A stretch of 21,912 nt of DNA from a virus. The notes under the pieces are model-generated. The model ran no database searches. It was not told the DNA's origin and saw only the letters and a list, made by a program, of their open reading frames with translations. Below are positions 3,919 to 19,953 of the stretch, piece after piece. The stretch is from IMG/VR virus record IMGVR_UViG_3300042383_001130, positions 1 through 21,912 of that record; one strand, written 5' to 3'. Numbering within the stretch: position 1 is the stretch's first letter; every line of letters starts with the position of its first letter. The position numbers and the translations under genes are program-made.

Positions 3919-4822
3919 TATCTAAAAAATACTGTATATCCACCTGCCATACTGACTTACCATGATATAATAATTTTGGTATAATATCTAAAGATTTGTT
4001 TCTACTACCAGTGAATATAAATTGTATATGCCTTGGATATTTATGGCATAAAGAACGCATATTATGAAAAACATATTCTAAATTTGTTTTTCTATTGTAT
4101 TTGCGCTGATTTATTAGTATGCTACTTATACTGCTTTCAATAACCACAAATAAATAACAATTCAATTCAACTGCTTTTATAACTTCCTTCTCAAATCTTT
4201 CTATTCCAGAAGCCATAGTGCCTAGAAAATCAGATTCGCTTTTTCTATCAACGAATGTATTAGTAAAATATTTTTTATCAGCGATTAGATAATCTCCTAC
4301 AAATATTTTTTCTATTTTAGACTTAGGGAATTCCAATGCGTCCTGTTCTCTAGTATCAATAAGTATCGGCAAATGAGATACATCTGTTTTATTAAAAGCT
4401 TCTGGTAAATTTTTATTATATAAAGGCTCAATATTTAAAAGCTTACATGCATTAGTATAAGAACTAAAATACTTCTTATAAATATTTAAACTCGGCAAAT
4501 CAAGAGTTATCACTTCATTATGAAACGGCGCAAAATGATATTGTTTTTCATCTACCCTCTTTTTTAGCAGTTCAATGCATTTTGTTTTAACTGTTTCTTC
4601 GTTAGATGCAGCTTCCCACTTCAGAAACTCTGTATAATCAAGAAACTCGGTTTCAAAATATTGTTTTTTATTTTTAAAAGGTATTTGTTGGCGATAATAA
4701 AGAGAGTTTCTCGGATAATGCGTGCAATAATACTCTGCTTGATAAAGGTTATGCTTTTTTAAATGGGCATGAAAAGACTTATCGTTATTAAAAGATTCGC
4801 TACAGATTTTACACTGAATCAT
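3863..4822 (-). CDS. C2H2 zinc finger + ERCC4-type nuclease
   Basis: A 319-aa protein with two recognisable parts. Residues 4-24 form a classical C2H2 finger (C4-x2-C7-x12-H20-x3-H24). Residues about 150-290 are an ERCC4/XPF-like nuclease: LIDTREQ (D156, R158, E159), VGDYLIAD (D177) and VDRKSESDF (D192, R193, K194, D198). These correspond to the GDx(n)ERKxxxD signature, with D in place of E in 'ERK'. ERCC4 nucleases cut branched or flap DNA next to ds/ss junctions. Lying between a 356-aa unknown and the terminase suggests a role in trimming replication or recombination intermediates before packaging, which is an inference. The start overlaps the preceding stop as ATGA (4819-4822), implying translational coupling. 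The segment between the finger and nuclease (about 40-145) is unrecognised. Confidence 0.8.
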   Translation of the reverse strand: MIQCKICSESFNNDKSFHAHLKKHNLYQAEYYCTHYPRNSLYYRQQIPFKNKKQYFETEFLDYTEFLKWEAASNEETVKTKCIELLKKRVDEKQYHFAPFHNEVITLDLPSLNIYKKYFSSYTNACKLLNIEPLYNKNLPEAFNKTDVSHLPILIDTREQDALEFPKSKIEKIFVGDYLIADKKYFTNTFVDRKSESDFLGTMASGIERFEKEVIKAVELNCYLFVVIESSISSILINQRKYNRKTNLEYVFHNMRSLCHKYPRHIQFIFTGSRNKSLDIIPKLLYHGKSVWQVDIQYFLDNELGNWQPSTKEVAVNFQ

Positions 4823-5889
4823 ATAGCATCTTCTTTAGAAATTCCTAAAATTCTAGCTTTCCATGAAGACATATTCTCTAAACGATCAGCTTCCTCCTTA
4901 ATAGTGCGCTTTTGCATATCGGCAATTTGAATCATCATTTTGCGTTCTTGCTCGTCTTGAAAAAGCTCTACAAGGTTAAGTATAGAAGCGTTCTTCTGAT
5001 GCGTTTGCTCTACTCTCTTGGACCGTTCGCCATTGAGCTTTTGAATACTCTTGTCTATACGCCCAGCGCACTGATTGTATTCTTCAGAGATCGTCTTAAG
5101 AACCTCAGTTAGACGCATTGTGAAGTCTTTCTGATCTTGCGTCTCATTGAACATATCATTTATCTTGTTTTTCTTAATATCGATCTGTCTTAGATTGATA
5201 TAGTCCATGCAAACATTAATATACAAATTAATTTCATCAACAGTCAAGTCAGGCTTATCCCAAACAGAGCGCACGAATTCCGCTTCGAATAATTCTTTAT
5301 CTATAGAGCTATTATATGAGTCGTAATTGCCAACAAATCTTGGACTTGATAAATAATTCAATAATTTTTCCATCCATTTTCTATGTTGCAAAGATAATTT
5401 TTCTTCAGAAATGTTTTGGCCGCACCATTTATTCGCTTTATTGATTACCGTTCTGATTGAGCGTGGAACAGAGTATTTGTCGCCAACTCCAGATTCGTTA
5501 TCTACAAGATAATCAGGATATTTTTCTTTTATGTATTTTTGAACGGCTCTATACTCAGGTGTAATAAAAATATTAAAGTTTTCAAGGCCCAGAAATTTTT
5601 CATGGAATATTAACTCTGTTACTTGCCTAGGAGTTATTCTTGTTTTAATGTTTTGTTCAATAAATTCACAATTTTCTTTTGATAGTATTTCTATTGTTTG
5701 TGTGGGCTTTGGCTTTTCTTGTTTTTTAACAAATCCAGTTGTTAAAAGAAAGTCTCTAACCAGTTTTGCCTCTTTAGATCTACCCGTTAAATCTTCACGA
5801 TTATAAAGTAGATTAGCGAGGACGACGTAGTCTTGAATTCCTTCGTTAATCTTCTTTAATATAAATGCTTTATTTTCGTCTGTTAACAT
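4819..5889 (-). CDS. Hypothetical 356-aa protein, candidate DNA-binding/small-terminase-position protein
   Basis: Not recognised as a named family. The N-terminus seems to contain two related helical modules. One is at about residues 1-50 (INEGIQDYVVLANLLYN..., then DLTGRSKEAKLVRDFL). The other is at about 70-125 (IKTRITPRQVTELIFHEKFLG..., then TPEYRAVQKYIKEKYPDY). Both have the form of a helix-turn-helix-like unit. The C-terminal third (about 240-340) is strongly charged and helical (long K/E/Q/R runs with heptad-like hydrophobics), consistent with a coiled coil. A DNA-binding N-terminus plus an oligomerising coiled coil, two genes upstream of the large terminase, fits a small-terminase-like role, but no motif proves it. 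It starts 1 nt after the sigma gene's stop and overlaps the next gene by 4 nt (ATGA). Confidence 0.65.
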   Translation of the reverse strand: MLTDENKAFILKKINEGIQDYVVLANLLYNREDLTGRSKEAKLVRDFLLTTGFVKKQEKPKPTQTIEILSKENCEFIEQNIKTRITPRQVTELIFHEKFLGLENFNIFITPEYRAVQKYIKEKYPDYLVDNESGVGDKYSVPRSIRTVINKANKWCGQNISEEKLSLQHRKWMEKLLNYLSSPRFVGNYDSYNSSIDKELFEAEFVRSVWDKPDLTVDEINLYINVCMDYINLRQIDIKKNKINDMFNETQDQKDFTMRLTEVLKTISEEYNQCAGRIDKSIQKLNGERSKRVEQTHQKNASILNLVELFQDEQERKMMIQIADMQKRTIKEEADRLENMSSWKARILGISKEDAI

Positions 5890-5890
5890 A

Positions 5891-6604
5891 TTAAGATGAG
5901 AATATATCGTTTTCTTTTAATAACAATTGAGCTTTCACATACAACATTTTTTTTAAATTTTTTATTTGTTTGTAACCCGCTTTTCTTCCTTTTTCGCTTG
6001 TTTTGAATTTTAGTATTTGGGCTACTTGATCATCGCTAAGATTGTCTATAAAAAACATTTTATAAATAAAGAAATGCTTATCTCCTAAATTATTTTTCAT
6101 TAAACCATGAAGTTTACTTTCAGCATTTTTATAATCATAGCTTATGCTTGATTCACAATTCATAAAATAATTTTTATGGTTCTCTAAACTTACGGTCATC
6201 TTGACATCGTAAGCGGATTTTTTTACTTTCTCCCATTTAGCGTATAATGGACATTCATTACATTGTTTGCCGCTAGTTGTAAAACCACATGACATTTCTA
6301 TTCCAGAATCACCTTCTTTATTTTGATTAAATGGACAAGACAAACAAGGACGCGCAAAACTTGTATAATTATTGCGTATAATATTTCTAATTTGATTCGT
6401 GACTATACGATTCACCCAAGGTTCAATCGCTCGCGATTGATCCCATAGATGCCATTTTTTATATATATGAAGTTTAATGACTTGCTCTATATCTTCAAAA
6501 TCAAACCAAGTAATCGCTTTTAACTTCCACTTGTTTCTGCGCTTTTTGATTACTTGGTTAATAATCTCATACATGTCTTCAAAATTTTTCTTTTTACGAT
6601 TCAT
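5891..6604 (-). CDS. Phage late sigma factor (gp55-like) with cysteine-rich insertion
   Basis: A 237-aa sigma-70-type factor. Residues about 30-80 look like region 2: WFDFEDIEQVIKLHIYKKWHLWD, then IEPWVNRIVTNQIRNIIRNNY, the core-binding and -10-recognition helices. Residues about 185-228 look like a region 4 helix-turn-helix (DNLSDDQVAQILKFKTSEKGRKAGYKQIKNLKKML). Between them is a Cys cluster (C87, C90, C106, C115, C118), which could bind zinc and is not part of ordinary ECF factors. In T4, gp55 directs RNA polymerase to TATAAATA late promoters. Such boxes occur in this window upstream of the GT4 gene and upstream of endonuclease VII, so this protein is the likely late sigma. Its start overlaps the zinc-ribbon gene's end by 11 nt. 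An ECF-type regulator is the alternative. Confidence 0.75.
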   Translation of the reverse strand: MNRKKKNFEDMYEIINQVIKKRRNKWKLKAITWFDFEDIEQVIKLHIYKKWHLWDQSRAIEPWVNRIVTNQIRNIIRNNYTSFARPCLSCPFNQNKEGDSGIEMSCGFTTSGKQCNECPLYAKWEKVKKSAYDVKMTVSLENHKNYFMNCESSISYDYKNAESKLHGLMKNNLGDKHFFIYKMFFIDNLSDDQVAQILKFKTSEKGRKAGYKQIKNLKKMLYVKAQLLLKENDIFSS

Positions 6605-6998
6605 CTATGTCTTGTATTGGGCGCGAACTACACTCCTTCAACGACTGACTTAAAAATTCTTCTTTAGTGAGTTTTCTATAATTAGAATTCGGTCTTGAAC
6701 TTATTCTTTCACTCTGATCGACTGGAGGAGCGTTAAATAAATCTTTTCCTAAATATTTATTACCTGCTGGTTTTTCTATTTCGTATGAAAGTTTCGATGG
6801 TCTGACGAAGACAGTGGGAATACCATCTTCATCGACTTCTGTATTTTGTTTGCGAGAGGTAGATCTCGATTGTAGTGAATTTTGTAAAGTCGGTTTACTG
6901 ATGTTTGCAAATCCTCCCAAAGAAACCCCACAGTTAGTACAGAATTTAGAGCCTTGGGCATGTTTTGTTCCGCAACTTGAACAGTAAATATTACTCAT
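6594..6998 (-). CDS. Small zinc-ribbon protein
   Basis: A 134-aa protein with an N-terminal zinc ribbon (C6-x2-C9 and C20-x2-C23: YCSSCGTKHAQGSKFCTNCG), like the 'zinc-ribbon domain' proteins common in bacteria and phages. The rest (about 30-134) is low in predicted structure, rich in S/K/R/P/N, and ends in an acidic DIDES. Function unknown. Its place directly upstream of a sigma factor that carries its own Cys cluster makes a transcription-related partner role possible, but this is only inferred. It sits in the operon PhoH -> zinc ribbon -> sigma, 10 nt after the PhoH stop and overlapping the sigma start by 11 nt. A shorter reading frame inside it in another phase is a shadow. Confidence 0.75.
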   Translation of the reverse strand: MSNIYCSSCGTKHAQGSKFCTNCGVSLGGFANISKPTLQNSLQSRSTSRKQNTEVDEDGIPTVFVRPSKLSYEIEKPAGNKYLGKDLFNAPPVDQSERISSRPNSNYRKLTKEEFLSQSLKECSSRPIQDIDES

Positions 6999-7008
6999 AG
7001 TTATTATA

Positions 7009-7758
7009 TCAATGAATGTTTGTTTTATCTAATCTCTTAAGAGAATGAACGATGTATTTAAGAATCTCACTACGCATAATATCTTCTTCATTGAATTCGA
7101 AACAATAAATACCCCTTTCTTCACTGTCTTTATTATTAAATAAATCATAGATTTTCATGAAACCAGATTTGTTTCCAATGTCTGATTGCATAGCGTCTCC
7201 GCAGATAAACATTTTAGTATTCTCGCCAATACGAGTGAGAAGAGTAATCAATTCCTTGCTGCTATAGTTCTGAGATTCGTCTGCAATAATGATCTTCTCG
7301 TTCCATGTGGCACCTCGTAAGAAGTTGACAGGCAAAGCCTCTATAATGCCACTAGTTTCAAGATATTTTGATTGAGACATCGGGATAAGCTCATCCAACT
7401 TATCATACAGCGGTATCATAAAAGGATTAAACTTTTCATCTACAGTTCCAGGCAAAGAACCTAATCCTCTTTCTCCAGACTCAACGATTGTTCTAATGTA
7501 TTTGATCTCGTACTTTGAATTCATATTCAACATATGCAATGCACAATAAACAGCCAAAAACGTTTTAGAACTTCCAGCCGGTCCATTAATAAAAACAATT
7601 TTAGTATTTTTATCAAAAGCTATTTGAGCAAAACTTTTTTGCTTGTCTGTTAAATTAAAATTCTTAATTGTTAATTTAGTCGATTTGAAACTATTATTTG
7701 AGATAATGTCGTTCAGATCGTGTTTTTCTTTTTGAATTTTTTTCTTTTTGATTGACAT
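7009..7758 (-). CDS. phoH: PhoH-family ATPase
   Basis: 249 aa, matching the single-domain PhoH family frequent in marine and other environmental phages. Walker A is GPAGSSKT (59-66). Walker B is IIIADESQN (D160, E161), followed by a helix and an 'ITLLTRIGENTKMFICGD' sensor-like segment. This is the superfamily-1-helicase-like core (QKSFAQIAFDKNTKIVFINGPAG; Q-motif-like Q40). PhoH proteins bind ATP, and RNA helicase or ribonuclease activity has been proposed; their role in phage infection is unsettled. The N-terminal 25 residues are lysine-rich. It is the first gene of the minus-strand packaging operon, divergent from the GT4 gene across a 27-nt gap. Confidence 0.9.
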   Translation of the reverse strand: MSIKKKKIQKEKHDLNDIISNNSFKSTKLTIKNFNLTDKQKSFAQIAFDKNTKIVFINGPAGSSKTFLAVYCALHMLNMNSKYEIKYIRTIVESGERGLGSLPGTVDEKFNPFMIPLYDKLDELIPMSQSKYLETSGIIEALPVNFLRGATWNEKIIIADESQNYSSKELITLLTRIGENTKMFICGDAMQSDIGNKSGFMKIYDLFNNKDSEERGIYCFEFNEEDIMRSEILKYIVHSLKRLDKTNIH

Positions 7759-7785: not shown

Positions 7786-8832
7786 ATGATTTTTCACTGT
7801 TTGAGCGTTCCTTACTCGCCTACTAGAAAAGATGTTTCATTATGTGCTTTTGTGCAAAAAGTTTATAAGTTTTGCGACGAAATGACTAAGAGGGGCCATA
7901 CTGTTTATCATTATGGTCATGAAAACTCTATTGTTAATTGCACAGAACATATTAATGTTACTAATAATGATATATTAATTAATAGCTATGGCAACTTAAA
8001 TGATTGGAAGGTTAAAGGTTTTGATCAAAACGTTAATACAAAAGCGGTTAATGCGTTTAATGACAATTGTGTTACAGAGTTAAACAAAAGAATAAAATCA
8101 AGTAATGAATTTATATTATGCTGGTTTGGGTTCGCGCATGAACCATGTGTTAAACACTTTTATGATAAAACTATAGTAGTAGAACCAAGCATAGGTTATG
8201 ATAGCATGTTCGCGCCAATTAAGATATTTGAAACATATAGTCAAATGCATAAAATGCACGGTCATTCTAAAACACACGTTGAATTAGGATGCGAATATGT
8301 TGTTTATCCCGGCTTTGATCCTGAAGACTTCATATACAAAAAACAAAAATCAAATACAGCATTATTTTTAGGCAGAATTATAGAAGATAAAGGCGCACAA
8401 CTTGCTTATGATATCTGCAATCACGTTGAACAAGATATTATATTTGCAGGACCAAACATACTGAATCTTAAAGAGACTAAACATTGTAAATTTGCAGGAT
8501 TCGTTGGTCCTATTGAACGAATGAATTTACTAAGCGATGCGAAATTTTTATTTGCTCCTTCGTTGTTTATGGAACCTTGTAACTGGACGGTTATTGAAGC
8601 TCAATTTTCAGGAACGCCTACTATTACAACGAATTTCGGCGGCTTTACCGAAACGGTATTGCAAGGAGAAACTGGATTAAGATGCTCTACTACAAACGAT
8701 ATGATATACGCCACTCAAAATATAGATAAGCTTATCAATCCTGAAAATTGTTATAAAAATGCTATTTCTAGATTTAATTTAAAAGCGCAATGTGATTATT
8801 ATGAATATATTTTTAAATCATTAATGATATGA
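7786..8832 (+). CDS. Glycosyltransferase, GT4 family (GT-B fold)
   Basis: 348 aa. The C-terminal half carries the GT4 nucleotide-sugar-binding pattern: GRIIEDKG (196-203), IIFAGP (218-223), then FMEPCNWTVIEAQFSGTPTI with the E-x7-E pair E263/E271, and FGGFTETV. The N-terminal acceptor domain (MIFHCLSVPYSP.., KVYKFCDEMTKRGHTVYHYGHE) shows the usual glycine-poor start of such enzymes. It should transfer a sugar from an NDP-donor; neither donor nor acceptor can be read from the sequence. It stands apart from the other glycan genes on the plus strand, coupled by an ATGA overlap (8829-8832) to the cytidylyltransferase, so the two probably act together. Confidence 0.85.
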   Translation: MIFHCLSVPYSPTRKDVSLCAFVQKVYKFCDEMTKRGHTVYHYGHENSIVNCTEHINVTNNDILINSYGNLNDWKVKGFDQNVNTKAVNAFNDNCVTELNKRIKSSNEFILCWFGFAHEPCVKHFYDKTIVVEPSIGYDSMFAPIKIFETYSQMHKMHGHSKTHVELGCEYVVYPGFDPEDFIYKKQKSNTALFLGRIIEDKGAQLAYDICNHVEQDIIFAGPNILNLKETKHCKFAGFVGPIERMNLLSDAKFLFAPSLFMEPCNWTVIEAQFSGTPTITTNFGGFTETVLQGETGLRCSTTNDMIYATQNIDKLINPENCYKNAISRFNLKAQCDYYEYIFKSLMI

Positions 8833-9218
8833 CAGCATATACATATGGAGTTTATGATCTATTTCATATAGGTCATGTAAATTTATTTAAAAGAATAAAA
8901 CAACAATGCAGTAAACTAATTGTTGGAGTTCATAATGATGAACAGGTTATGACTTATAAAAATAAACCTATCATTAATTACTATGATAGGTTAGAGATTA
9001 TTAAATCTTGTAGATATGTTGATGAAATTTATGAAAATGCAGATTTAGTAACTACTGATGATATATTAATAAAATTAAAAGCTGATTTCGTTTTCGCTGG
9101 AAACGAAAATCCAGAGTATCTTGAAAAATATTATCAAGTATCTTCTGGCAAATTGATTCTTTTAGATAGAACAGAAAACATTTCTACATCAAAAATTAAA
9201 AATTTATTAAAATTTTAA
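8829..9218 (+). CDS. Cytidylyltransferase, glycerol-3-phosphate (TagD/GCT)-type
   Basis: 129 aa, the size of the single-domain GCT/TagD family. The nucleotidyltransferase signature is complete: YGVYDLFHIGHVNLF with HIGH at 13-16, and RTENISTS at 114-121 (family RTxGISTS, with N instead of G). These enzymes make CDP-activated alcohols (CDP-glycerol, CDP-ribitol, or similar) or NDP-heptose precursors from CTP/ATP and a phosphate ester. In this setting it likely supplies an activated building block to the neighbouring glycan or phospho-alcohol decorating enzymes, possibly the LicD-like protein encoded convergently. Its stop overlaps the end of that convergent gene by 12 nt. Confidence 0.85.
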   Translation: MTAYTYGVYDLFHIGHVNLFKRIKQQCSKLIVGVHNDEQVMTYKNKPIINYYDRLEIIKSCRYVDEIYENADLVTTDDILIKLKADFVFAGNENPEYLEKYYQVSSGKLILLDRTENISTSKIKNLLKF

Positions 9219-9971
9219 ATGATCAATATCATTTTTTATCATAAATGAGATAAAATCCGAATAAAATATATTATCATTTTTAATAATAATTTCTGAATAA
9301 CAGTCGTCAAAAATATTTATTTTTGTACAATCTATATCTAAAACGCCTCTCTTTACTATTATCTTGCGGAAGAAATTTTTTAAATTTTCTACTTGCATAT
9401 CTATTTTATCATAGTTTTCTAAATCAGTATAGAAACAACACTCTTTCATGTGCGACGTATTTCCACTTTCTTTAGATCCGTATTGTATTTTTTCAACAGA
9501 GTAATCTCCATAAACAGTTTTTAAAAATAAATCTGGTCTATAGACAGTCGTAAAACTTTTATTTTCCAAAATAACTTCAGAAGATTTAAAAGTTTGAAAA
9601 TGAAATATTTTTTCATGTATAAAATTAAAATCCGCTAAATAATAATTTATATTTCTTTTTAAAAATAAATTTAAATCAATTCTTTTACTGCTATTAAAAT
9701 TAAAATATATCGATAAAACGGCAAGGTTCAAATGCCAAGAAAAAGGAGGAGAATTTGCAGATATTAAATCTAAAATACTATTTAAATTTTTATAATTTTC
9801 ATTAGCTATAATAGCAAAATCTATATCATCAGATTTAAAAACACCGTTGTCTCTAACCGCATTAATTAACGATCCTCCAATTAAATAACATTCTATGTTA
9901 TTTTCCCAAAACAAATTTTGCAAAAATTTTGCATAATTTATGTAATGATCTGTATGAAATTCTATATTCAT
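9207..9971 (-). CDS. LicD-like / nucleotidyltransferase-fold phosphotransferase
   Basis: 254 aa. The N-terminal segment FLQNLFWENNIECYLIGGSLINAVRD..FKSDDIDFAI has the nucleotidyltransferase pattern GGS (32-34) followed by DDID (D49, D51). That pattern is shared by LicD/fukutin-type phosphotransferases and pol-beta-like enzymes. LicD proteins transfer phosphocholine or related phospho-alcohols from CDP donors to surface glycans, which fits the CDP-forming enzyme encoded tail-to-tail. The rest (about 60-254) has no motif I can name, and the very C-terminal part appears AT-biased and variable. The alternative is a generic nucleotidyltransferase. It is the last gene of the minus-strand glycan block, separated by about 70 nt from the heptosyltransferase upstream of it. 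Confidence 0.65.
   Translation of the reverse strand: MNIEFHTDHYINYAKFLQNLFWENNIECYLIGGSLINAVRDNGVFKSDDIDFAIIANENYKNLNSILDLISANSPPFSWHLNLAVLSIYFNFNSSKRIDLNLFLKRNINYYLADFNFIHEKIFHFQTFKSSEVILENKSFTTVYRPDLFLKTVYGDYSVEKIQYGSKESGNTSHMKECCFYTDLENYDKIDMQVENLKNFFRKIIVKRGVLDIDCTKINIFDDCYSEIIIKNDNIFYSDFISFMIKNDIDHLKF
9217..9237 (+). terminator. Weak intrinsic terminator after the plus-strand pair
   Basis: AAATGAT and ATCATTT pair around a CAAT loop, and the right arm runs directly into further T's (9232-9237). The arm begins inside the stop codon of the cytidylyltransferase. The stem is short and AT-only, so termination would be modest. It lies within the coding 3' end of the convergent gene. Confidence 0.4.
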
Positions 9972-10042: not shown

Positions 10043-10942
10043 CTACCTTTCTATTCCAACGTCTATTTCGTTCTTGCTTGTGTGTAAATCGTTTAGCAAT
10101 AAATCTATTTTTTCTTTTACCATTTCAAAAGATATTTCTTTTGAGCATTCAAAATCTTTATTTCTTGGACAATATTTCCAAGTTTTTGCTATATTTTTTT
10201 CATTATCTATTGAGCTATCATTCAAACAGCCATTACAAACATTTTTATTTATCACTCTATAATTATTTTCTTTGAATTCGTTATTCTCGCTTGTGCATCC
10301 AGATATCATGACAACTTTTTTATTTAAAGCCCAAGCTAACCAAGAAAGACCACTGCTTAAGCCGATAAAAAAAGCACAATTTTTTATTTGTTCTGTTCTG
10401 TATTCAATAGGATAATCTCCAGTTTCATTAATTGCTCCATTAGGAATTTTATTCCATTTTCCTTTTTCACCAAAAAGCTCATGTTTATCAATAGCATATA
10501 TATCATATCCTAAATTTTTAAGATAACTAACTACTTTTTTCCAACCATTATCGTTCCAATATTTCATTTGACTAGTTGAATGAACGCTTATACAAACATA
10601 TTTTTTCTTTTTATTAAATTTATATTTAGTAATTTCTTTCAAAAATGGTTTTATTTCTTGATATTCTAAATCTAAAGTTTCACAAATTATTTTTTGCATT
10701 GGTCCTTCTTGAAATTTAAAATATATATCTTTTATCGCGTCGAAACTATTTTCATAATCTTTGTTAACAAAAAAAACATTAGAATTGTTAGAGTGTAGAA
10801 TATTGTGCCAAATTGTTTTAACATAAACTAAACCTCCATATTTTTTTTGATAAAGGTCCGCATAAACCGAAAAAGCAATATTATCCCCTAAAGAATTAGA
10901 AATAAAATTTATTAATGTAGTTTTATTTTTCATACAGAACAT
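10043..10942 (-). CDS. GT9-type O-heptosyltransferase-like protein (autotransporter heptosyltransferase family), stand-alone copy
   Basis: 299 aa resembling the bacterial autotransporter heptosyltransferase (BAHT/TibC) family. It has SLGDNIAFS near the N-terminus (18-25), KYVCISVHSTSQMKYWNDNGW (114-134), INETGD (171-176), the donor-site segment FFIGLSSGLSWLAWALNKKV (191-210), and four cysteines C236, C239, C258, C266 in the pattern CNGC..WKYCP..FECS. In TibC-type enzymes four such cysteines bind an iron ion. It is clearly paralogous to residues about 385-660 of the protein encoded just upstream, so one arose by duplication. BAHT enzymes put heptose on Ser residues of adhesins; here the acceptor is unknown. 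The start could be M1 (10942, overlapping the upstream gene by 20 nt) or M4 (10933). Confidence 0.8.
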   Translation of the reverse strand: MFCMKNKTTLINFISNSLGDNIAFSVYADLYQKKYGGLVYVKTIWHNILHSNNSNVFFVNKDYENSFDAIKDIYFKFQEGPMQKIICETLDLEYQEIKPFLKEITKYKFNKKKKYVCISVHSTSQMKYWNDNGWKKVVSYLKNLGYDIYAIDKHELFGEKGKWNKIPNGAINETGDYPIEYRTEQIKNCAFFIGLSSGLSWLAWALNKKVVMISGCTSENNEFKENNYRVINKNVCNGCLNDSSIDNEKNIAKTWKYCPRNKDFECSKEISFEMVKEKIDLLLNDLHTSKNEIDVGIER

Positions 10943-13586
10943 TCCAAACGTATTCTAAAATTCTACCTGATACTTGAGAACTCAGACTTTGAGCATTTTT
11001 TGTGACTTTTAACTTTTCATCTATTTCAGTTATTAACAACCAATTTAAAAGACGAATATAAAAATCTTTAGTATAGATTAGAACTTTTTCTTTTTTAACT
11101 AAAAATTGAGCGCTACCCTTTCCATCTATTTTTTCAGGCATTAGAATCTCACCATTGAACAATTCAAACCATACGTCTTCGACCCATAGTTTATAACTTC
11201 TTTTATATGTACATCTTGATCCCAATCTATGATAAAAATGCTCTTCCTCACTTTCTACTTCATTTTTTAATAATGGGACTATATCGTTATTATTAAAATT
11301 AAAATATTTTTTCTGTAAGTCTAATTCTTTGATTAATAAATCTATATTTTTATCTTGATGCCAAGAGTTTCTATGAGCATGAATAAAAATCATGTTTTCT
11401 GGAAGATTATCATAGTTGTCAATTATATATTTTAAATAAGCGTAAGACTCGACGCCTTTATCATGATCTATATTTATTATTTTATCGGTATTATGTAAAG
11501 TTCTAGAATATATAACGTAATCAAACGAATCGTCTAAAAAATCTAACCAATTTAAATTTTCATTAAAGTGATGAGCTATTATTTTTGTATTCTTTTTCTC
11601 TTGAGAATCAGAAATACATGAATCAATTTTTTCTCTTACCATCTCAAACGTAATCTCTCGGGAACATTCAAAATTTTTATTTTTGGGACACCACAACCAA
11701 TTATCTCTTTCAAATGGTAACGACGAATCATTCCAACAACTATTACAAACGTTTTTATTATGAACTCTATATGGAGTATAAAATTCAGATTTAGGATCTG
11801 AAAACCCTGATATCATAATCACTGGTTTACCACATGCCCATGCTAACCAAGACAATCCAGAACCTAATCCAATAAAAAATTCACAATCGCGTAAATCATT
11901 CACTCTATCTTCTAAAGATATATCTCCCGTCTTATTAATAGCATTAGATGGAATGCTATTCATGTTATTAGGCGGTAATCCAAAACTTTCATAACGATCA
12001 ATGCATACTACATCATAATCTAATTTATTTAGATAATCTACTATTTGAATCCAACCATTTTTATTATTCCAGTATTTACATTGAAGAGTAGATTGCGTAG
12101 CTATGCAAACGTATTTTTTATTATATTTATTTCTTCTATTAAAGAATTTTATTTTACATTGTTCTTCGTTATAGGTTAAACCTAAAATTAAACAAGCGAT
12201 TTCTTGCAAATTTTTATCTCTCCAATCTAGATCTACAAAACAACCTATTTTAAAATCTATTTTTGAAAAAAAATCAAATTGTTTAGAATAATCATGAAAT
12301 TTTAATTCTGGATAGCTTTTTTCTAAAATTTCTTTGTATGGAGTAAAATAATTTACTTTTATATTTTTTTCTCTAGCGTATCTCGCTACAATTGGAGTCC
12401 AAGCTATAAAATCTCCTAAACTAGCAGATTCATTAGTTATATTAATTTCTTTTTTTTCAAATTCTTCTTTTAAATGTTGTGTTGCTATTTTTGCAGCCTT
12501 TTCCCAAGTAAAATCTTCTCTAATAATAAAACTATCTTTCAAAGCTTTCTCTTTATAAAAAGCGTAACTATTATAAACCTCTAACATTTTATCCTTAAGA
12601 TCGTTATAATCAGGACTATAATAACCAAACATAGGATTTTTTTTATCTAAAATTTCTCCATGAATTTTAACTGGTATACCCAATCCTTTTGCAAATTCTA
12701 ATTGACCCGAACAATCAGAATATATAGATGGAATACCACACGCTAAAGATTCTATAAGCGGCAAATTCCAACCTTCAGATTTTGAGCAAGATAAGTAAAC
12801 ATGACTACTTTGAATCATTTTTATGACCTCCTCTCTATGTTGAAAATCTATAATTTTAATATTCTTGCAATCAACGTTTATATTTTTAAGTCTTTCTGAT
12901 GTAGATTTAAAATCATCATCAGGGAAATTATTCGAACAAGATAGTAATAATTGTGTATTATCGTTATTCCCAAATAACTCCACATAAGCTTTTATTAATT
13001 CTTTTGTACTTTTTCTTGTTTCCCATTTTCCCAAAATTAAAAATGTAAATTTATCAAAAACATTTGTTTTGTCTGGGAATAAAATTTCAGGATCAATCCC
13101 TTCTGGAACAATTTTTACTTTTTCTTTTTGTATTCCCTGTTTAATCAAACAAATTTTTTGCCAATCAGTGGGAACCCACACTTGATCAGCGCATTTAAGT
13201 TTATTGAAAAATTCTTCTGAATACGTCGTTTTTTCCCAAACGTTATAAAATATTTTTTTCCCTAAATATTTATTATCGTAATATCTATGATGACAATCAA
13301 TTAAAACGATATCGTACTGATGATTAAAATTAGAAATTCCATTGTAAATAGGCACATCTATGTCACCTTGTTCTGAACCGCAAGTTTGTAAAGCTAATAT
13401 TTTTTTATCTAATTCGTCTACGGAATCACCATGAACTTCTTTAGAATTAATTCCCTGCCAATTAGAATCTATAGAAAAATTTCTTATTTTCACTTCGGCT
13501 TCTTTAGATAATGCTCTAAAAAAATTTTTAGAATGAACAGCATACCCAGTGTTTCCAATATAAGCACAATGCCCTAAAATTTTCAT
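10923..13586 (-). CDS. Three-domain fusion: GT4 glycosyltransferase - BAHT-like heptosyltransferase - DUF3431-like
   Basis: 887 aa, far longer than single glycosyltransferases. Residues 1-375 are a GT4 enzyme: N-terminal ILGHCAYIGNTGYAVHSKNF, FLILGKWETRKST (182-194) and SEGWNLPLIESLACGIPSI with the E-x7-E pair E271/E279. Residues about 385-660 are a BAHT/GT9 heptosyltransferase: SLGDFIAWTPIVARY (389-403), INKTGD (550-555), FFIGLGSGLSWLAWACGKPV (570-589) and the cysteines C614, C617, C633, C641. Residues about 665-885 resemble DUF3431: IIAHHFNENLNWLDFL, KGVESYAYLKYIIDNYDNLP and MIFIHAHRNSWHQD, a family often tied to glycosyltransferases. The protein could build a glycan in sequential steps on one polypeptide. 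The start overlaps the GT2 stop as ATGA. The reading frame is continuous, so the fusion is not a frameshift artefact. Confidence 0.85.
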   Translation of the reverse strand: MKILGHCAYIGNTGYAVHSKNFFRALSKEAEVKIRNFSIDSNWQGINSKEVHGDSVDELDKKILALQTCGSEQGDIDVPIYNGISNFNHQYDIVLIDCHHRYYDNKYLGKKIFYNVWEKTTYSEEFFNKLKCADQVWVPTDWQKICLIKQGIQKEKVKIVPEGIDPEILFPDKTNVFDKFTFLILGKWETRKSTKELIKAYVELFGNNDNTQLLLSCSNNFPDDDFKSTSERLKNINVDCKNIKIIDFQHREEVIKMIQSSHVYLSCSKSEGWNLPLIESLACGIPSIYSDCSGQLEFAKGLGIPVKIHGEILDKKNPMFGYYSPDYNDLKDKMLEVYNSYAFYKEKALKDSFIIREDFTWEKAAKIATQHLKEEFEKKEINITNESASLGDFIAWTPIVARYAREKNIKVNYFTPYKEILEKSYPELKFHDYSKQFDFFSKIDFKIGCFVDLDWRDKNLQEIACLILGLTYNEEQCKIKFFNRRNKYNKKYVCIATQSTLQCKYWNNKNGWIQIVDYLNKLDYDVVCIDRYESFGLPPNNMNSIPSNAINKTGDISLEDRVNDLRDCEFFIGLGSGLSWLAWACGKPVIMISGFSDPKSEFYTPYRVHNKNVCNSCWNDSSLPFERDNWLWCPKNKNFECSREITFEMVREKIDSCISDSQEKKNTKIIAHHFNENLNWLDFLDDSFDYVIYSRTLHNTDKIINIDHDKGVESYAYLKYIIDNYDNLPENMIFIHAHRNSWHQDKNIDLLIKELDLQKKYFNFNNNDIVPLLKNEVESEEEHFYHRLGSRCTYKRSYKLWVEDVWFELFNGEILMPEKIDGKGSAQFLVKKEKVLIYTKDFYIRLLNWLLITEIDEKLKVTKNAQSLSSQVSGRILEYVWNVLYEK

Positions 13587-14751: not shown

Positions 14752-15693
14752 TTATATAGCAAAATCTAAATATTCTATAACTTGATTCACAGAAGGCTGG
14801 CACTCAAATGTTTTTTTATTTTCTAGACAATTGATTAAAGGAGGAACGTAATTAATACTAGCCCACTCTTTTATAGAGTATCTTAAATTATTAGTGCAGT
14901 ATAAATCACAAGCGCCTTTTAAATATTTATATTTATAATTTTGACGACTATTTCTATAAGGAGCTACCAATCTTGGATCTTTTGCGCTTCCCAAATGTAA
15001 AATATTTACATCAGTTGTGCCAGCTAAATGCAAAGGTCCGGTATCGAATGAGATAAATAACTTAGAGTTATTTATAATATTCCAACATTGACTCATGTTA
15101 GTTTTATCTATTAAATTTAAACCATAAATATTTTCAAAATCATAAAAGTCTTTGTTTATTACATGAAATTCTTGCTCTATGGTTTTTTTACCTATCAGAA
15201 CTGTAAAAATATTTCTTTTCTTTAGGTAGTCTATTATTTTTTGCCAATTTTCTTTTGCCCATGTTCGATTAGGCCAATTTTTTGCAGTATGTAAAACAAT
15301 ATATGGAGATTTAATATTAAAATCATTTTTATAAGGCGAACTGAAAAATTCGCAATGCATTTCTTCAGGCATTAATGAAAAACCAAGATCCATAGCATGA
15401 ATCTGTCTAATATCGAAAGTATTAAATTTTCTTTCTATACCAAATTGATTTTGTTTACCAGGAAGGACGAATGATTCAAAAAACTCATAATCGCCAGATA
15501 AATTATTGATATTAAAATGATTTGAGTTTATTATTTTATCTATGTAAGGATTGTTTTGCAACACTTCGGGTGTATCATTTATTATATTTAATTTCGTATC
15601 GTATAATTTACTTAACTTTCTAATAACAGGGGTTGAACACAAAACGTCGCCTAAATTTGTACAATTTATTTTATAAAATATATTTTTATTCAT
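14752..15693 (-). CDS. Glycosyltransferase family 9 (ADP-heptose:LPS heptosyltransferase-like)
   Basis: 313 aa with the GT9 signature: CTNLGDVLCSTPVIRKLSKLY at the N-terminus (family GDxLxxTPxxRxL), VLHTAKNWPNRTWAKENWQKII in the middle, and FISFDTGPLHLAGTTDVNILHLGSAKD, the donor-binding D-x-GPxHLA motif. This type transfers heptose or a related sugar from an ADP/NDP donor to LPS core in bacteria. It is more canonical than the two BAHT-like copies downstream and lacks their four-cysteine cluster pattern. The stop is 11 nt upstream of the GT2 start, and the start overlaps the FkbM gene end by 4 nt. Confidence 0.85.
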   Translation of the reverse strand: MNKNIFYKINCTNLGDVLCSTPVIRKLSKLYDTKLNIINDTPEVLQNNPYIDKIINSNHFNINNLSGDYEFFESFVLPGKQNQFGIERKFNTFDIRQIHAMDLGFSLMPEEMHCEFFSSPYKNDFNIKSPYIVLHTAKNWPNRTWAKENWQKIIDYLKKRNIFTVLIGKKTIEQEFHVINKDFYDFENIYGLNLIDKTNMSQCWNIINNSKLFISFDTGPLHLAGTTDVNILHLGSAKDPRLVAPYRNSRQNYKYKYLKGACDLYCTNNLRYSIKEWASINYVPPLINCLENKKTFECQPSVNQVIEYLDFAI

Positions 15694-16685
15694 TTGATTT
15701 TCTGCGAATTATTTTTAGCGTAAATGATACCTAGCGTATCATTTAAATCGCCATGTTCAACAGTGAATTCATTTTCTTTTAAAAATTTAATTATCCCATG
15801 ATAAGGACCATGATATTCTAAAGCAATTTTATTAACTCTTTCTCTTAAAAAACTAGCGTTGTCTTCAATAAAAATATCATATTCGCCACCTTCACAGTCA
15901 ACTTTTAAGAAATCAATAAAATCTATATTATTTAATTTTACAAAGTCTAAAAAACTAAAAGTATTAACAGTTTCTTTTGAAAAAACATTTGGTTTTATAG
16001 AGTTGTTTCTTTCGTTTTTTAATAAAAAATTAGCCCCACTAAAAATATCTAATAACACTAAATCTTGAGTTTCTGTATTTTTTGATATAGCGCACTTATT
16101 TAAATGGACTTTTGAATTGCCATTAAAATTTTGTTGTAAAACCTCAAAACACTTCGAATTAGGTTCGCAAGAAAAGACGCGACTCGCTGCTTTTTCTAAA
16201 GCGTAATGAATAAATAGACCCACATTTGAACCAATATCTACCACTGTATCATTTTTTTCTATAAAAATTCCATATTTATTATAACTTTCGATAAAAAATA
16301 TTTCTTTAACAATAGATAAATCGATAGTTAAATTTTTGTTATAAAAATAATTCAACAAGCAAGGGACGTTTTTTAAGATATCGAAACAAGGGTTTTTTGA
16401 GAAACGAAATTCTTCTTTAAAAATAGTTTGACCGCCATCTTCAACAGAAAAATAAGCCCATTTTGAAAACGGTAAATTTGCCGTACTTATCCAATAACAT
16501 TGATTTTGAACAAGATTTAATGTTTCGCCATAAAGTCTAAAACCAAACAACGAATCGTCCAAACGTATATATAAATCTTTATTACATAAATTAGGGTTTG
16601 CGATAGAAAAAGTAAATTTTATTTCACTTTTCGTTTCGTAATATTCAACGTCGTGAACAATAAATTGCGGCTGATGTGTGATCAT
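15690..16685 (-). CDS. FkbM-family methyltransferase
   Basis: 331 aa from the preferred start at 16685 (MITHQPQFIVHDVEYY). An upstream in-frame ATG at 16727 lies inside the epimerase gene and would add 14 residues. The C-terminal half (about 135-325) is a FkbM-type SAM-dependent O-methyltransferase: NDTVVDIGSNVGLFIHYAL (motif I), FSCEPNSKCFEVLQQNF (acidic residue binding SAM ribose), and FLKVDCEGGEYDIF, the family hallmark. The N-terminal 120 residues look like a separate beta-rich domain (EIKFTFSIANPNLCNKDLYIRLDD..) of unknown function. It likely methylates a sugar hydroxyl of the glycan, for example capping it. It is 5 nt after the epimerase stop and overlaps the GT9 start by 4 nt. Confidence 0.85.
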   Translation of the reverse strand: MITHQPQFIVHDVEYYETKSEIKFTFSIANPNLCNKDLYIRLDDSLFGFRLYGETLNLVQNQCYWISTANLPFSKWAYFSVEDGGQTIFKEEFRFSKNPCFDILKNVPCLLNYFYNKNLTIDLSIVKEIFFIESYNKYGIFIEKNDTVVDIGSNVGLFIHYALEKAASRVFSCEPNSKCFEVLQQNFNGNSKVHLNKCAISKNTETQDLVLLDIFSGANFLLKNERNNSIKPNVFSKETVNTFSFLDFVKLNNIDFIDFLKVDCEGGEYDIFIEDNASFLRERVNKIALEYHGPYHGIIKFLKENEFTVEHGDLNDTLGIIYAKNNSQKIK

Positions 16686-16690
16686 TTTAT

Positions 16691-17500
16691 TTAAATATGG
16701 TTTTTGATTTTGCGAAGATCCGCACATGAGTGGCGTACCTCTTTCTTCGCTTCCTTGTATATTATATGGCTACCGAATTGTTTTGCAAGTGAGTTTATAG
16801 AAATAGAATTGCCGGTTCCTACATTAAATATCTCATTCTTTACTATAGTAATTATCAGTTTAGAAATATAGTTGCACACATCGTTAACACTGACGAAATC
16901 CCTAGTCTGTTCACCATCTCCATAAACGATCAGCGGCTCTTTTTTCTGAGCGGCGACATTAAATGCCGTTATGACTCCAGCATATTGCGGATTCTGTCCT
17001 TCACCATACACATTGAAGAAGCGAAATATTAAATAATCGATACCCCATTGTTGGCAATACATTTGTATGTATTTTTCGGAGGCTAACTTATCTAATCCGT
17101 ATGGACTGTTAGGTTCGGCGGCATCAGTTTCACTTACCGCGCCTTCTTTACTGCCATACACCGCTGCGCTAGAAGCGAAGACGAATTTCTTAATCTTATG
17201 AAGGTGGGCGGCTGATAATAATTTTATAGTACAGAACGTATTATTGCCAAAGCTATTTATTGGATCTTCAAATGATTTTGGCACACTCACCATACCAGCT
17301 AGATGAATGATAGTGTCTATATTATCGAAAAAGATATCGTTAACGTCGATATCTAGTATATCTATTATCTTTTGTTTGTCGGGTGGGAGTGCGGGGCTGC
17401 TAATTTTGTCCAGATTATAAATGTCATGCCCATCACTAGACAATTTTTTTATTAAATGGGTGCCAATAAAGCCGCTGCCACCAGTAATCAATATTCTCAT
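16691..17500 (-). CDS. NAD-dependent epimerase/dehydratase (extended SDR, GalE-like), C-terminally short
   Basis: 269 aa. Rossmann motif GGSGFIG (7-13), SSAAVYG (110-116), and the catalytic pair Y134/K138 in YGLDKLASEKYI, all intact. This is an extended SDR that interconverts or dehydrates NDP-sugars, supplying donors for the glycosyltransferases. It ends just after EVRHSCADLRKIKNHI, where relatives usually continue for some 35-50 residues (LGY-P-x-x-x-E-GL type tail), so the C-terminal substrate-binding tail is missing. The truncation coincides with the start of the FkbM gene 5 nt on. By eye the gene is less AT-rich than the glycosyltransferases downstream, suggesting a separate origin. The start overlaps the endonuclease VII stop by 4 nt. 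Confidence 0.85.
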   Translation of the reverse strand: MRILITGGSGFIGTHLIKKLSSDGHDIYNLDKISSPALPPDKQKIIDILDIDVNDIFFDNIDTIIHLAGMVSVPKSFEDPINSFGNNTFCTIKLLSAAHLHKIKKFVFASSAAVYGSKEGAVSETDAAEPNSPYGLDKLASEKYIQMYCQQWGIDYLIFRFFNVYGEGQNPQYAGVITAFNVAAQKKEPLIVYGDGEQTRDFVSVNDVCNYISKLIITIVKNEIFNVGTGNSISINSLAKQFGSHIIYKEAKKEVRHSCADLRKIKNHI

Positions 17501-17853: not shown

Positions 17854-18170
17854 TTATTATATTATATCATACGTAGAAAACATGGGTTTTTTTATTTTTT
17901 GTTTATAGAAAACATGGGTTCGTATTTTTTTTATTTTTATTTATAGAAATATAGCGTTTTTATGTTTTTTTATAGGAAAAGGGGGGGGAGGGTATGGATT
18001 GTGTTGTTGTTGAGATAAGAAGAAGGAGATATAATAGATAGATATAATATGATGGTTATTTATGTTAAGGAATATAATGTTTAAGAATTTGGGGTTTGAG
18101 AGATTGAGAATAACCTCCCCCCGCCTATATCTCACAAAAGTCAAGAACTTTTTTTTTAAAAAAACGGGGG
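17854..18170. other. Low-complexity, T/A-rich intergenic region
   Basis: No supportable gene. The left part (17870-17975) holds imperfect repeats with TATAAA boxes, described separately. Then come a purine-rich AGGAAAAGGGGGGGGAGGG (17973-17991), a GTTGTTGTTG stretch, and an inverted pair GGTTATT (18054-18060) / AATAACC (18109-18115) enclosing a C-poor arm. Further C-rich and A/T-run segments lead into the first palindromic element at 18171. Reading frames here are short, low-complexity and lack start signals. This is where the style of the DNA changes, from AT-rich packed genes to GC-richer tiny genes. Confidence 0.6.
17867..17974 (-). promoter_or_regulatory. Tandem TATAAA-box repeats upstream of endonuclease VII
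   Basis: Read on the minus strand, the motif TTTTCTATAAA recurs. TATAAAAA is at 17967-17974, TATAAATA at 17938-17945 (an exact T4 late consensus) and TATAAACA at 17900-17907. Each is preceded by TTTC or TTCC. A degenerate fourth TTTTCTACGTATGATATAAT lies just before the gene. The sequence TAGAAAACATGGGTT (plus strand) is repeated exactly at 17874-17888 and 17906-17920, 32 bp apart. These look like stacked late-type promoters for the minus-strand glycan operon, probably read by the sigma factor encoded at 5891-6604. Confidence 0.5.
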
Positions 18171-18211
18171 GGTTGGCATGGCAAATGCTGGGAGCATAAC
18201 GCGTGCCAACC
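18171..18211. repeat. Palindromic element, short copy A (GGG centre)
   Basis: GGTTGGCA (18171-18178) pairs with TGCCAACC (18204-18211), and the inside reads TGCT-GGG-AGCA (18186-18196). This is the collapsed form of the family whose long copies carry a C-run/G-run between TGCT and AGCA. It lies at the head of the tiny-gene region, 50 nt upstream of the first leaderless promoter. No adjoining TATAAT-type promoter was found. Confidence 0.75.
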
Positions 18212-18260
18212 TACTGCGGCCAGGCCATCAAAAAAAAGTGAGAAAAAAAGCAGATTAAAA

Positions 18261-18289
18261 TTGACGACCTGCAAAATTTCGTGCATTGT
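18261..18289 (+). promoter_or_regulatory. Leaderless-type promoter, 17-nt spacer
   Basis: -35 TTGACG (18261-18266), 17 nt, weak -10 CATTGT (18284-18289), 6 nt, then the ATG at 18296. A-runs upstream (about 18229-18256) look like an UP element. The -10 is the poorest of the set, but the geometry is identical. Confidence 0.6.
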
Positions 18290-18295
18290 ATGTAC

Positions 18296-18532
18296 ATGAA
18301 AAACGAAATGACGGTCCTGAAGATCAGCAAGTTCAAGAGCGTGGTTCTGGTCTCGGTCACGTACCGATTGGCGAACGGTGAAGTCCGTGTGGCTTCTGGC
18401 AAGACCGAAAGCGAAGCAATGGCGAACATGACAACCGAGACGACGAAAGTCCTTGACTTCGCCCCGCTTGCAAAACGGAGCGATAGCGGAACAAGCTTCC
18501 GAAACAACCGAGGCATGATGGTCGAGGTCTGA
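18296..18532 (+). CDS. Hypothetical 78-aa small protein (leaderless)
   Basis: MKNEMTVLKISKFKSVVLVSVTYRL..., an unrecognised small protein. The first half looks like beta-strands (SVVLVSVTYRLANGEVRVASG), followed by a short helix (ESEAMANMTTETTKV). The tail is basic and Gly/Asn-rich (KRSDSGTSFRNNRG). The frame is open five codons upstream, but the promoter geometry places the 5' end at the ATG at 18296. The start peptide MKNEM matches the M-x-N-E-hydrophobic pattern of the other leaderless genes. The stop TGA runs directly into the A-tracts of the next promoter. GC is higher than in the left part of the window. Confidence 0.65.
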   Translation: MKNEMTVLKISKFKSVVLVSVTYRLANGEVRVASGKTESEAMANMTTETTKVLDFAPLAKRSDSGTSFRNNRGMMVEV

Positions 18533-18551
18533 AAAAAAAGTGAAAAAAAAG

Positions 18552-18580
18552 TAGACAGAAAACGCCAACTCGACTAAGGT
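18552..18580 (+). promoter_or_regulatory. Leaderless-type promoter, 17-nt spacer
   Basis: -35 TAGACA (18552-18557), 17 nt, -10 TAAGGT (18575-18580), 6 nt, ATG at 18587. Two A8 tracts (18532-18539 and 18543-18550), 11 bp apart and so on the same helix face, lie immediately upstream as an UP element or bend. Confidence 0.65.
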
Positions 18581-18586
18581 AACACC

Positions 18587-18757
18587 ATGACAAACGAATT
18601 CGCCAACATCAGCGCAGAGAGCAACATGAGCAGCATGATCACCCTGAGCTTCGAAGAAATCATCGAAGCCAACGCATGGTTCGACATGGTTTCCGCTCAA
18701 TTCGACGAAGTCGAAGCGGCATGGGATCGCCTTGTTGAATACGTTGACAACATCTAA
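18587..18757 (+). CDS. Hypothetical 56-aa acidic helical protein, paralogue family 1
   Basis: MTNEFANISAES...FEEIIEANAWFDMVSAQFDEVEAAWDRLVEYVDNI, a small acidic, probably all-helical protein. It is paralogous to the 46-aa product at 20694: both share NEF-x-x-ISAES, an M-I, E-I-x-EAN-x-WFDM and an acidic tail. Function unknown. It begins with the shared M-x-N-E-hydrophobic peptide and sits exactly 6 nt after its -10, so it should be translated from a leaderless mRNA. It heads a unit with two coiled-coil family 2 genes (18790, 19050) that ends at palindromic element B. Confidence 0.75.
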   Translation: MTNEFANISAESNMSSMITLSFEEIIEANAWFDMVSAQFDEVEAAWDRLVEYVDNI

Positions 18758-18789
18758 CACAACAACAACAACTTTAATACAATAACAAT

Positions 18790-18993
18790 ATGTCAAAACA
18801 ATCTCTTTCTATCAATCAAATCATTCAGTTGCGCCAAGGTCTAGAACTGCGTATCACAGAACTACAAAAGCGCATTGATCAGTGCAATGACATTAATCTG
18901 CCCGGTACTGCAAAACTTTGGCAAACCGATTTGAATGAAGTTACCGCAATGCAAAACATATTGAATTCTTGTTACACTGTAACTCTTGAATAA
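18790..18993 (+). CDS. Small coiled-coil protein, paralogue family 2 (copy 1), 67 aa
   Basis: MSKQSLSINQIIQLRQGLELRITELQKRIDQC..., a single long helix with heptad hydrophobics, then a short second helix (LWQTDLNEVTAMQNIL). It is one of four related products (18790, 19050, 20195, 20870) sharing the order: LR-x-x-L...I-x-x-x-x-I-x-x-C/A, a polar turn, a W preceded by an aromatic or L, E/D-rich residues and a closing N-x-L. No known family recognised; dimeric coiled coil inferred. There is no Shine-Dalgarno: the 32-nt leader is CAACAACAACAAC and AATACAATAACAAT directly after the upstream stop, so it depends on the family 1 promoter at 18552. Confidence 0.75.
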   Translation: MSKQSLSINQIIQLRQGLELRITELQKRIDQCNDINLPGTAKLWQTDLNEVTAMQNILNSCYTVTLE

Positions 18994-19005
18994 AAGGTAA
19001 TACAA

Positions 19006-19031
19006 TAAGGGCTGTACTAGTACAGCCCTTA
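19006..19031. repeat. Perfect 26-bp palindrome between two family 2 genes
   Basis: TAAGGGCTGTACT followed by its exact complement, with no loop, in the 56-nt gap between copies 1 and 2 of the coiled-coil family. Centre CTAG. It is flanked by AATACAA and CAATAAC. As RNA it would be a strong hairpin without a U-run; as DNA a symmetric operator or a nuclease/resolvase target. Confidence 0.75.
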
Positions 19032-19049
19032 CAATAACAATATAATAAC

Positions 19050-19235
19050 ATGCAAGACATTAACAACAACGAACTCGCCACCCTTCGTATCGCTCTTATG
19101 GATAAGATAGATAAGATGGATAGAATCATCAAAGAGTGCGAAAAGACAAACGATCAGCTTAGTAAGTTATATTGGGAAGAAGCTATTGTTAAACACAACG
19201 AATTGTTAAACAAGTTGTACGATATGCAGAGATAG
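19050..19235 (+). CDS. Small coiled-coil protein, paralogue family 2 (copy 2), 61 aa
   Basis: MQDINNNELATLRIALMDKIDKMDRIIKECEKTNDQLSKLYWEEAIVKHNELLNKLYDMQR. It has the family 2 pattern with LR-x-AL, a C at about residue 30, the YWEEA block and N-x-L near the end. Strongly helical, no membrane segment. Its leader is AT/CAA-rich (ACAATAACAATATAATAAC before ATG) with no Shine-Dalgarno. It is the last gene of the unit started at 18552 and is followed within 25 nt by element B. The neighbouring copy (18790) is diverged, so duplication is not recent. Confidence 0.75.
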   Translation: MQDINNNELATLRIALMDKIDKMDRIIKECEKTNDQLSKLYWEEAIVKHNELLNKLYDMQR

Positions 19236-19246
19236 TAATACAATAG

Positions 19247-19358: not shown

Positions 19359-19372
19359 CTATCCGCCAACCC

Positions 19373-19564: not shown

Positions 19565-19570
19565 GCGTAC

Positions 19571-19599: not shown

Positions 19600-19643
19600 G
19601 AAAAAAATGCAGAAAAAAGAAAAAAAAAATGTGCAAAAAAAGC

Positions 19644-19947: not shown

Positions 19948-19953
19948 TTGGGC

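Follow-up and report, generated by a model that had tools for sequence, protein, structure and literature searches.

The IMG/VR record IMGVR_UViG_3300042383_001130 is a 21.9-kb viral fragment, analysed here over its full 21,912 nucleotides (nt; hereafter the window). It encodes an 887-amino-acid fusion protein in which a predicted heptosyltransferase domain of the BAHT (TibC-like) type follows a GT4 glycosyltransferase domain and precedes a DUF3431 domain. The open reading frame (ORF) was assigned to the minus strand, with an ATG at 13586 and a stop at 10923, because the plus strand of 10923-13586 is full of stop codons and the minus-strand ATG ORF is continuous. An earlier note made from the letters of the DNA had the coordinates right and left the strand unstated; it also missed a second BAHT gene (BAHT2, 10043-10942), which overlaps the fusion ORF by 20 nt, and a separate GT9 gene at 14752-15693. 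The fusion and its tandem partner comprise:

12471-13586, minus strand: GT4 domain of the fusion (GT-B, retaining type), amino acids 1-372 (PF00534 6e-14 over amino acids 178-300; phrog_2170 2e-35)
11607-12470, minus strand: BAHT/TibC-type heptosyltransferase domain (BAHT1), amino acids 373-660 (TIGR04414, TibC match, predicted fold)
12411-12413, minus strand: predicted catalytic base Asp392 (TibC alignment, residue census)
11664-11747, minus strand: predicted iron-finger Cys614, Cys617, Cys633 and Cys641 (TibC alignment)
10926-11606, minus strand: DUF3431 domain of the fusion, amino acids 661-887 (PF11913 4e-32)
10043-10942, minus strand: stand-alone BAHT2, 299 amino acids (TIGR04414 202.9 bits)

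A TibC-type catalytic domain in a phage fusion protein

The literature presents BAHTs as enzymes that modify the autotransporter adhesins of bacteria. In NCBIfam profile searches, amino acids 373-655 of the fusion matched hepto_Aah_TibC (TIGR04414) at 274.2 bits, and BAHT2 scored just above the curated cut-off of 200 bits. Pfam recognises a GT9 region in the fusion (PF01075, 8e-7, amino acids 476-619), and the WaaC/WaaF class of lipopolysaccharide (LPS) heptosyltransferases is not indicated (heptsyl_trn_I, 21 bits against a cut-off of 185). TibC (PDB 4rap and 4rb4) is the sole solved structure matched by sequence (E=2e-57, amino acids 377-654). In the alignment the four cysteines of the fusion correspond to TibC Cys339, Cys342, Cys358 and Cys370, and Asp392 corresponds to TibC Asp110. 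Asp110 is the catalytic base of TibC, and Thr226, Lys230, Arg286 and Trp305 contact ADP-heptose (PMC4358343). Equivalents of all five residues are kept in both BAHT1 and BAHT2, as are the four iron-finger cysteines, and the cysteines and Trp305 are invariant across 70 nonredundant viral and 71 bacterial rows. The four-Cys site of the window copies is a predicted iron-finger, and sequence comparison confirms that the BAHT/TibC-type identity of the fusion domain is not due to chance.

In the AlphaFold2 model of the fusion, confidence is good for the BAHT part, where block means lie mostly at 70-96, and poor for both the GT4 N-terminus (amino acids 1-120) and DUF3431. The BAHT part is nearest TibC (Foldseek E 3e-26; VIA Z 28.8, root mean square deviation 2.8 over 295 amino acids), with WaaC (Z 18) and other GT9 structures at Z 18-20, and the GT4 part matches GT4 folds at Z 14-15.5. 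The TibC/BAHT assignment and the four-Cys site put forward in the earlier note are thus borne out by TIGR04414, the TibC sequence match and the aligned cysteines, and the structural comparison it had proposed places the predicted model nearest TibC.

The third domain, DUF3431, is matched by PF11913 over amino acids 669-886 at 112 bits (Pfam gathering score 25 bits), and the single-sequence fold of this domain has a predicted local distance difference test score of 34. The closest relative (L025) encodes a GT4-BAHT protein of 663 amino acids, accompanied by a BAHT2 in the same flanks; its GT4 domain is 74% identical to that of the fusion, and it has no DUF3431. Since DUF3431 was found in one of 48 related viral records and is absent from L025, it is taken as a late C-terminal addition and, judged from these sequences, is peculiar to the window's virus among its relatives. 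The same counts speak against the GT4-GT9-DUF3431 order as a conserved architecture, and the term three-enzyme overstates what the fusion is, as no activity is established for DUF3431. No DUF3431 relative was found in IMG/VR with the patterns used, or in phage records; none was found in 299 genomes of one phylum, in a search that had no positive control and does not by itself establish absence.

A large and varied family of viral BAHTs

An alignment query placed the BAHT domain in at least 571 confirmed IMG/VR stretches, and a full-length query recovered 21 IMG/VR loci. In one-per-species prokaryote genomes (GTDB) the count is 229, obtained with different patterns and not directly comparable with that of at least 571. 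The only deposited phages that matched were Microcystis phage Mel-JY01 and three uncultured-phage records (636-735 kb). No PHROGs family recognises either window copy, and we found no literature description of phage BAHTs, within incomplete literature coverage. A terminase is present on 36 of 48 viral BAHT records.

Viral architectures include GT4-BAHT, GT2-BAHT, GT4-GT2-BAHT, GT4-GT2-FkbM-BAHT, GT4-GT4-FkbM-BAHT, GT9-GT4-BAHT, BAHT-FkbM and BAHT with its own N-terminal barrel, the last exemplified by L011 and L016, which match TIGR04414 from position 11 or 9. Across hundreds of phage contigs the BAHT catalytic and iron-finger core recurs as an exchangeable building block, with architectures and likely targets that differ from the bacterial ones.

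In a tree of 75 rows, a single branch separates every bacterial BAHT sampled, including TibC, from all viral ones (Shimodaira-Hasegawa-like approximate likelihood ratio test, 99). The bacterial set consisted of the 80 sequences that best matched a viral alignment, and an attempt to root on GT9 failed, with some non-GT9 rows in the intended outgroup and very long branches; the tree therefore shows a separation of viruses and bacteria, not a direction of transfer. Within it, the window's BAHT1 and BAHT2 lie in separate clades (99 and 100).

A short, barrel-less BAHT2 lies directly after BAHT1 in many viral relatives, with an overlap of 4-44 nt in most. Recent tandem duplication as the origin of the pair is unsupported, since the two copies belong to separate supported clades. 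Tandem BAHT genes also occur in several bacteria (L028, L035, L037, L040, L046, L074, L078 and L105), where both copies are long enough for a barrel.

Association with serine- and threonine-rich virion proteins

Blind to BAHT, we searched IMG/VR for stretches whose DNA encodes (Gly-[Ser/Thr]-[Ser/Thr])8. The BAHT domain was present in 8 of 120 such (GSS/GTS)n stretches versus 1 of 239 pooled controls (p=0.0009), the latter made up of stretches with another Gly-X-Y pattern (0/119) or a random 14-mer (1/120). Pairwise identity among these eight BAHTs does not exceed 62%. Reciprocally, the repeat occurs in 8 of 53 nonredundant BAHT loci and in 1 of 120 random stretches (p=0.0004), the BAHT loci being longer on average (834 kb in 53 versus 1,098 kb in 120). 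Both long contigs syntenic with the window, G042 and G046, carry (GSS/GTS)n fibre ORFs, which in G046 begin 4.4 kb past the portal gene. This pattern is an association and no proof of modification; ecology or lineage common to the carriers may play a part. In the window's phage group, collagen-like fibre ORFs of great length, made of (GSSGTSG)n and free of proline, were observed at L225:1940-7706 and L226:1-3402, and a capsid-like ORF adjoins them in G046. Collagen-like surface proteins that carry sugars are known from BclA and mimivirus (PMC8968730).

Virion genes also lie beside BAHT. In L125, L126, L131, L132 and L133 about 92 nt separate the end of the BAHT pair from the tail sheath gene that follows, and sheath genes also lie close downstream of BAHT in L010 and L020. 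The sheath proteins of L125 (11813-15766), L131 (11811-15158), L132 and L133 are 1115-1337 amino acids long and combine near-identical ends with a hypervariable Ser/Thr-rich insertion; the ends are 93-100% identical between most phages compared, and the insertion is 22-73% identical and contains 18-31% Ser+Thr. Further near neighbours of BAHT are collagen-like fibres (Mel-JY01, L141 and L147), a tail fibre (L022) and Hoc-like or tail proteins (L174, L161 and L016). In Mel-JY01 the most Ser/Thr-rich ORF of the 190 kb is collagen-like and lies 1.7 kb from BAHT. This 805-amino-acid fibre ORF (L194:635-3052) seems miscalled in GenBank, where an antisense coding sequence (739-2298) and a short one (2519-3052) are annotated.

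The known target repeat of bacterial BAHTs, TIGR04415 (SLS, strand-loop-strand), behaves differently: it occurs in 22 of 28 bacterial BAHT genomes and in none of 49 viral records, the window (a fragment) included. This bears on the possibility that the phage domains glycosylate surface or secreted proteins of the host, such as adhesins and autotransporters, as TibC and AAH do, and so alter host behaviour during infection. The phage domains share the catalytic family of TibC, which modifies Ser of its protein target (PMC4358343). However, with the repeat absent from the viral records any target would need to belong to the host, the barrel required for TibA heptosylation is missing from the window copies, and adjacency to virion genes argues for self-modification. 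We regard action on host proteins as very improbable, and the adhesin-directed role suggested in the earlier note by analogy with bacterial BAHTs finds no support in the 49 viral records.

The island and its phage context

The fusion and BAHT2 lie within a run of glycan-related genes that adjoins a phage core:

13583-14803, minus strand: GT2 glycosyltransferase (PF00535 5e-13)
14752-15693, minus strand: GT9 heptosyltransferase-like protein of 313 amino acids, not a BAHT (PF01075 4e-16; TIGR04414 18 bits only)
15690-16727, minus strand: FkbM-family methyltransferase (TIGR01444 3e-22, PF05050 7e-14)
16691-17500, minus strand: NAD-dependent sugar-nucleotide epimerase, GalE-like and more weakly HldD-like (PF01370 2e-55; TIGR01179 145 bits and TIGR02197 120 bits, both below cut-off)
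9207-9971, minus strand: LicD-like protein, weak (PF04991 E=0.0015, below the gathering cut-off)
8829-9218, plus strand: nucleotidyltransferase, GCT/HldE-C-like (PF01467 2e-21; phrog_7878 1e-22; TIGR02199 55 bits, below cut-off)
7786-8832, plus strand: second GT4, a conserved island flank (phrog_3408 2e-62; 71-83% identical in G046 and G042)
2-7758, minus strand: phage core adjoining the island (phrog_2 2e-27, phrog_170 2e-63; synteny with G042 and G046), including the terminase large subunit (2053-3918), a sigma-like ORF (5891-6604), PhoH (7009-7758) and, at the window's left end, an ORF labelled portal-like from its position and appearance

The window is syntenic with G042 (terminase large subunit 94%, portal 75% identical) and G046 (85% and 71%). 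The terminase and the phage core genes agree with the phage origin and packaging neighbourhood given in the earlier note. Between the terminase and a 356-amino-acid ORF, positions 3863-4822 encode a 319-amino-acid protein that by eye resembles a C2H2 finger joined to an ERCC4/XPF-type nuclease (DTREQ, DRKSESD). The right end of the window (17900-21912) is richer in G+C and contains short ORFs and repeated cassettes with C18-26/G20-26 homopolymer palindromes and TATCCCCTTGGGATACCCCATTG. The 23-mer occurs in 7 IMG/VR contigs, at least 3 of them BAHT carriers, which indicates that the repeats are real viral DNA. A chimeric right end was ruled out, the same repeats being present in related viral contigs.

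No protein with two or more predicted transmembrane segments was found among the island genes of the window or among 97 neighbour proteins, so that no flippase, polymerase or lipid-linked export route is visible near BAHT. These data weigh on a second alternative, in which the island alters host surface glycans (LPS, O-antigen or capsule), for example for superinfection exclusion, and the BAHT domains, like GT9 heptosyltransferases, act on LPS or on a sugar precursor. Phage glycosyltransferase clusters have been published as modifiers of host surface glycans (PMC7824862; PMC7029224), and LPS is commonly built by GT9 and GT4 enzymes, with a separate GT9 present in the island. Yet neither the island nor the 97 neighbours include a membrane-bound transferase, flippase or polymerase, the domain is of the protein-modifying BAHT type and not the GT9 WaaC type, and the BAHT genes both adjoin and co-occur with Ser/Thr-rich virion genes. 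We consider remodelling of host glycans unlikely.

A proposed route of virion glycosylation

With reasonable though not strong confidence, we interpret the window as a phage protein-O-glycosylation island that carries out soluble, cytoplasmic O-glycosylation of Ser/Thr repeats in virion proteins. The BAHT1 domain and BAHT2 would transfer the first sugar, probably heptose from ADP-heptose, to Ser/Thr of virion proteins in the cytoplasm during infection. The acceptors would differ from phage to phage, with Hoc-like proteins, insertions in the tail sheath and collagen-like (GSS/GTS)n fibres as the candidates. Extension and decoration or capping of the first sugar would then fall to the GT4 of the fusion and to the GT2, GT9, epimerase and FkbM proteins encoded nearby. 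We infer the identity of the acceptors, heptose as the sugar and the order of these steps; we also infer that the sugars may stabilise the proline-free collagen-like fibres. The earlier note had offered both virion glycosylation and modification of the host surface. The first is favoured by the Ser/Thr-rich virion neighbours and the (GSS/GTS)n enrichment, and the second is less so, as no membrane-bound glycan-export genes lie nearby and autotransporter repeats are absent.

Several observations weigh against virion glycosylation by the island. The window's own fibre genes are outside the contig: the window ends inside the portal-like gene, so a (GSS/GTS)n copy of its own would be off the contig. 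Over 11 long records BAHT lies closer to the ORF richest in Ser/Thr than random placement would give, an effect that is only modest and was tested post hoc (Fisher p=0.012); an earlier, looser permutation test, which took in several target genes, did not reach significance (p=0.35). In G042, G046, G049 and G053 the most Ser/Thr-rich ORF lies 15-40 kb from BAHT. Two features of TibC are also missing. Deletion of its N-terminal beta-barrel (residues 1-97) abolishes TibA heptosylation, and its hydrophobic thumb tip, Phe265-Val266, joins dimers into a dodecamer (PMC4358343). The barrel is absent from both window copies, whose TIGR04414 matches start at profile position 77 or 80 of 374; upstream of the BAHT domain there is GT4 in the fusion and nothing in BAHT2. 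The thumb tip is polar in both copies (Asn-Asn in BAHT1, Gly-Lys in BAHT2), and its residues also differ in many bacterial BAHT members. Without barrel and hydrophobic tip, the window domain is best described as a BAHT catalytic module, not a TibC-like stand-alone enzyme. Lastly, GmhA was found in none of 48 viral BAHT records and HldE-C-like genes in only 10, none over the cut-off, which would leave the host as the source of ADP-heptose. A viral heptose pathway was rejected for the same reasons.

The supply of heptose touches a further alternative, that the BAHT domains bind ADP-sugars but transfer a sugar other than heptose, or glycosylate DNA or another small acceptor. Position 300 of TibC sets heptose stereoselectivity (PMC4358343), and its equivalent is Gly in BAHT1 and Ser in BAHT2. 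This variation, the loss of Arg286 in some other viral copies and the lack of heptose biosynthesis genes in these viruses would fit such a change, but every TibC contact with ADP-heptose tested is kept in both window copies. We judge this alternative quite improbable, although for its DNA version no search aimed at DNA-modifying partners was made; from the donor-site residues, the transferred sugar is probably heptose. In L010 an HldE-C-like adenylyltransferase (1927-2333) directly follows BAHT-FkbM and precedes the tail sheath gene; it is split by a frame change that reflects either a sequencing error or a broken gene.

More tentatively, tailed phages may own a large and old BAHT-based protein-O-glycosylation system. 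It would hyperglycosylate Ser/Thr-rich virion proteins, among them the proline-free collagen-like (GSS/GTS)n fibres, which might gain stability from the sugars. In this reading the autotransporter-modifying BAHTs of bacterial pathogens are one branch of a mainly viral family. Chief among the new points are the breadth of the viral BAHT family, the tandem pair and the association with Ser/Thr-rich virion proteins instead of autotransporters. Should virion fibres, sheaths and decoration proteins prove to be the targets, phages would carry their own soluble O-glycosylation machinery, which would bear on how stable the particles are, how hosts are recognised and where BAHTs came from. Virion glycosylation is directly testable in the isolated phage Mel-JY01.

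Comparison with known systems

The window enzymes share with TibC of enterotoxigenic Escherichia coli the GT-B catalytic domain, the Asp base, the ADP-heptose contacts, the four-Cys iron-finger, a predicted beta-hairpin thumb and a soluble nature. Unlike TibC, they have no barrel, a polar thumb tip and no strand-loop-strand autotransporter target, BAHT1 is fused to GT4 and DUF3431, and both copies belong to a phage-encoded multi-enzyme island. AAH is of the same family and has Ser at the stereoselectivity position, as in BAHT2, and it uses both ADP-heptose epimers; however, it is a stand-alone enzyme with an autotransporter partner.

Among phage proteins, WWT39291.1 of the isolated tailed phage Mel-JY01 (1226 amino acids, annotated 'methyltransferase FkbM') likewise combines an N-terminal GT4 with a C-terminal BAHT (TIGR04414, 317 bits). 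It differs in a weak barrel match (PF21129, below cut-off), a long middle region and the lack of DUF3431 and of a tandem copy, and its annotation omits BAHT. An automated UniProt label, 'Glycosyltransferase Aah/TibC [uncultured Caudovirales phage]' (A0A6J5SVC1), already records a TibC-like domain in a phage protein but is silent on architecture, tandem copies, distribution and target.

The GT9 LPS heptosyltransferases WaaC and WaaF belong to the same GT-B superfamily (Z 18-20), but they lack the iron-finger, act on LPS and are clearly farther from the window domain than TibC is. BclA-type collagen-like proteins and mimivirus collagen resemble the proposed acceptors as surface proteins that carry sugars, although the enzymes involved are different and their carriers are not tailed phages.

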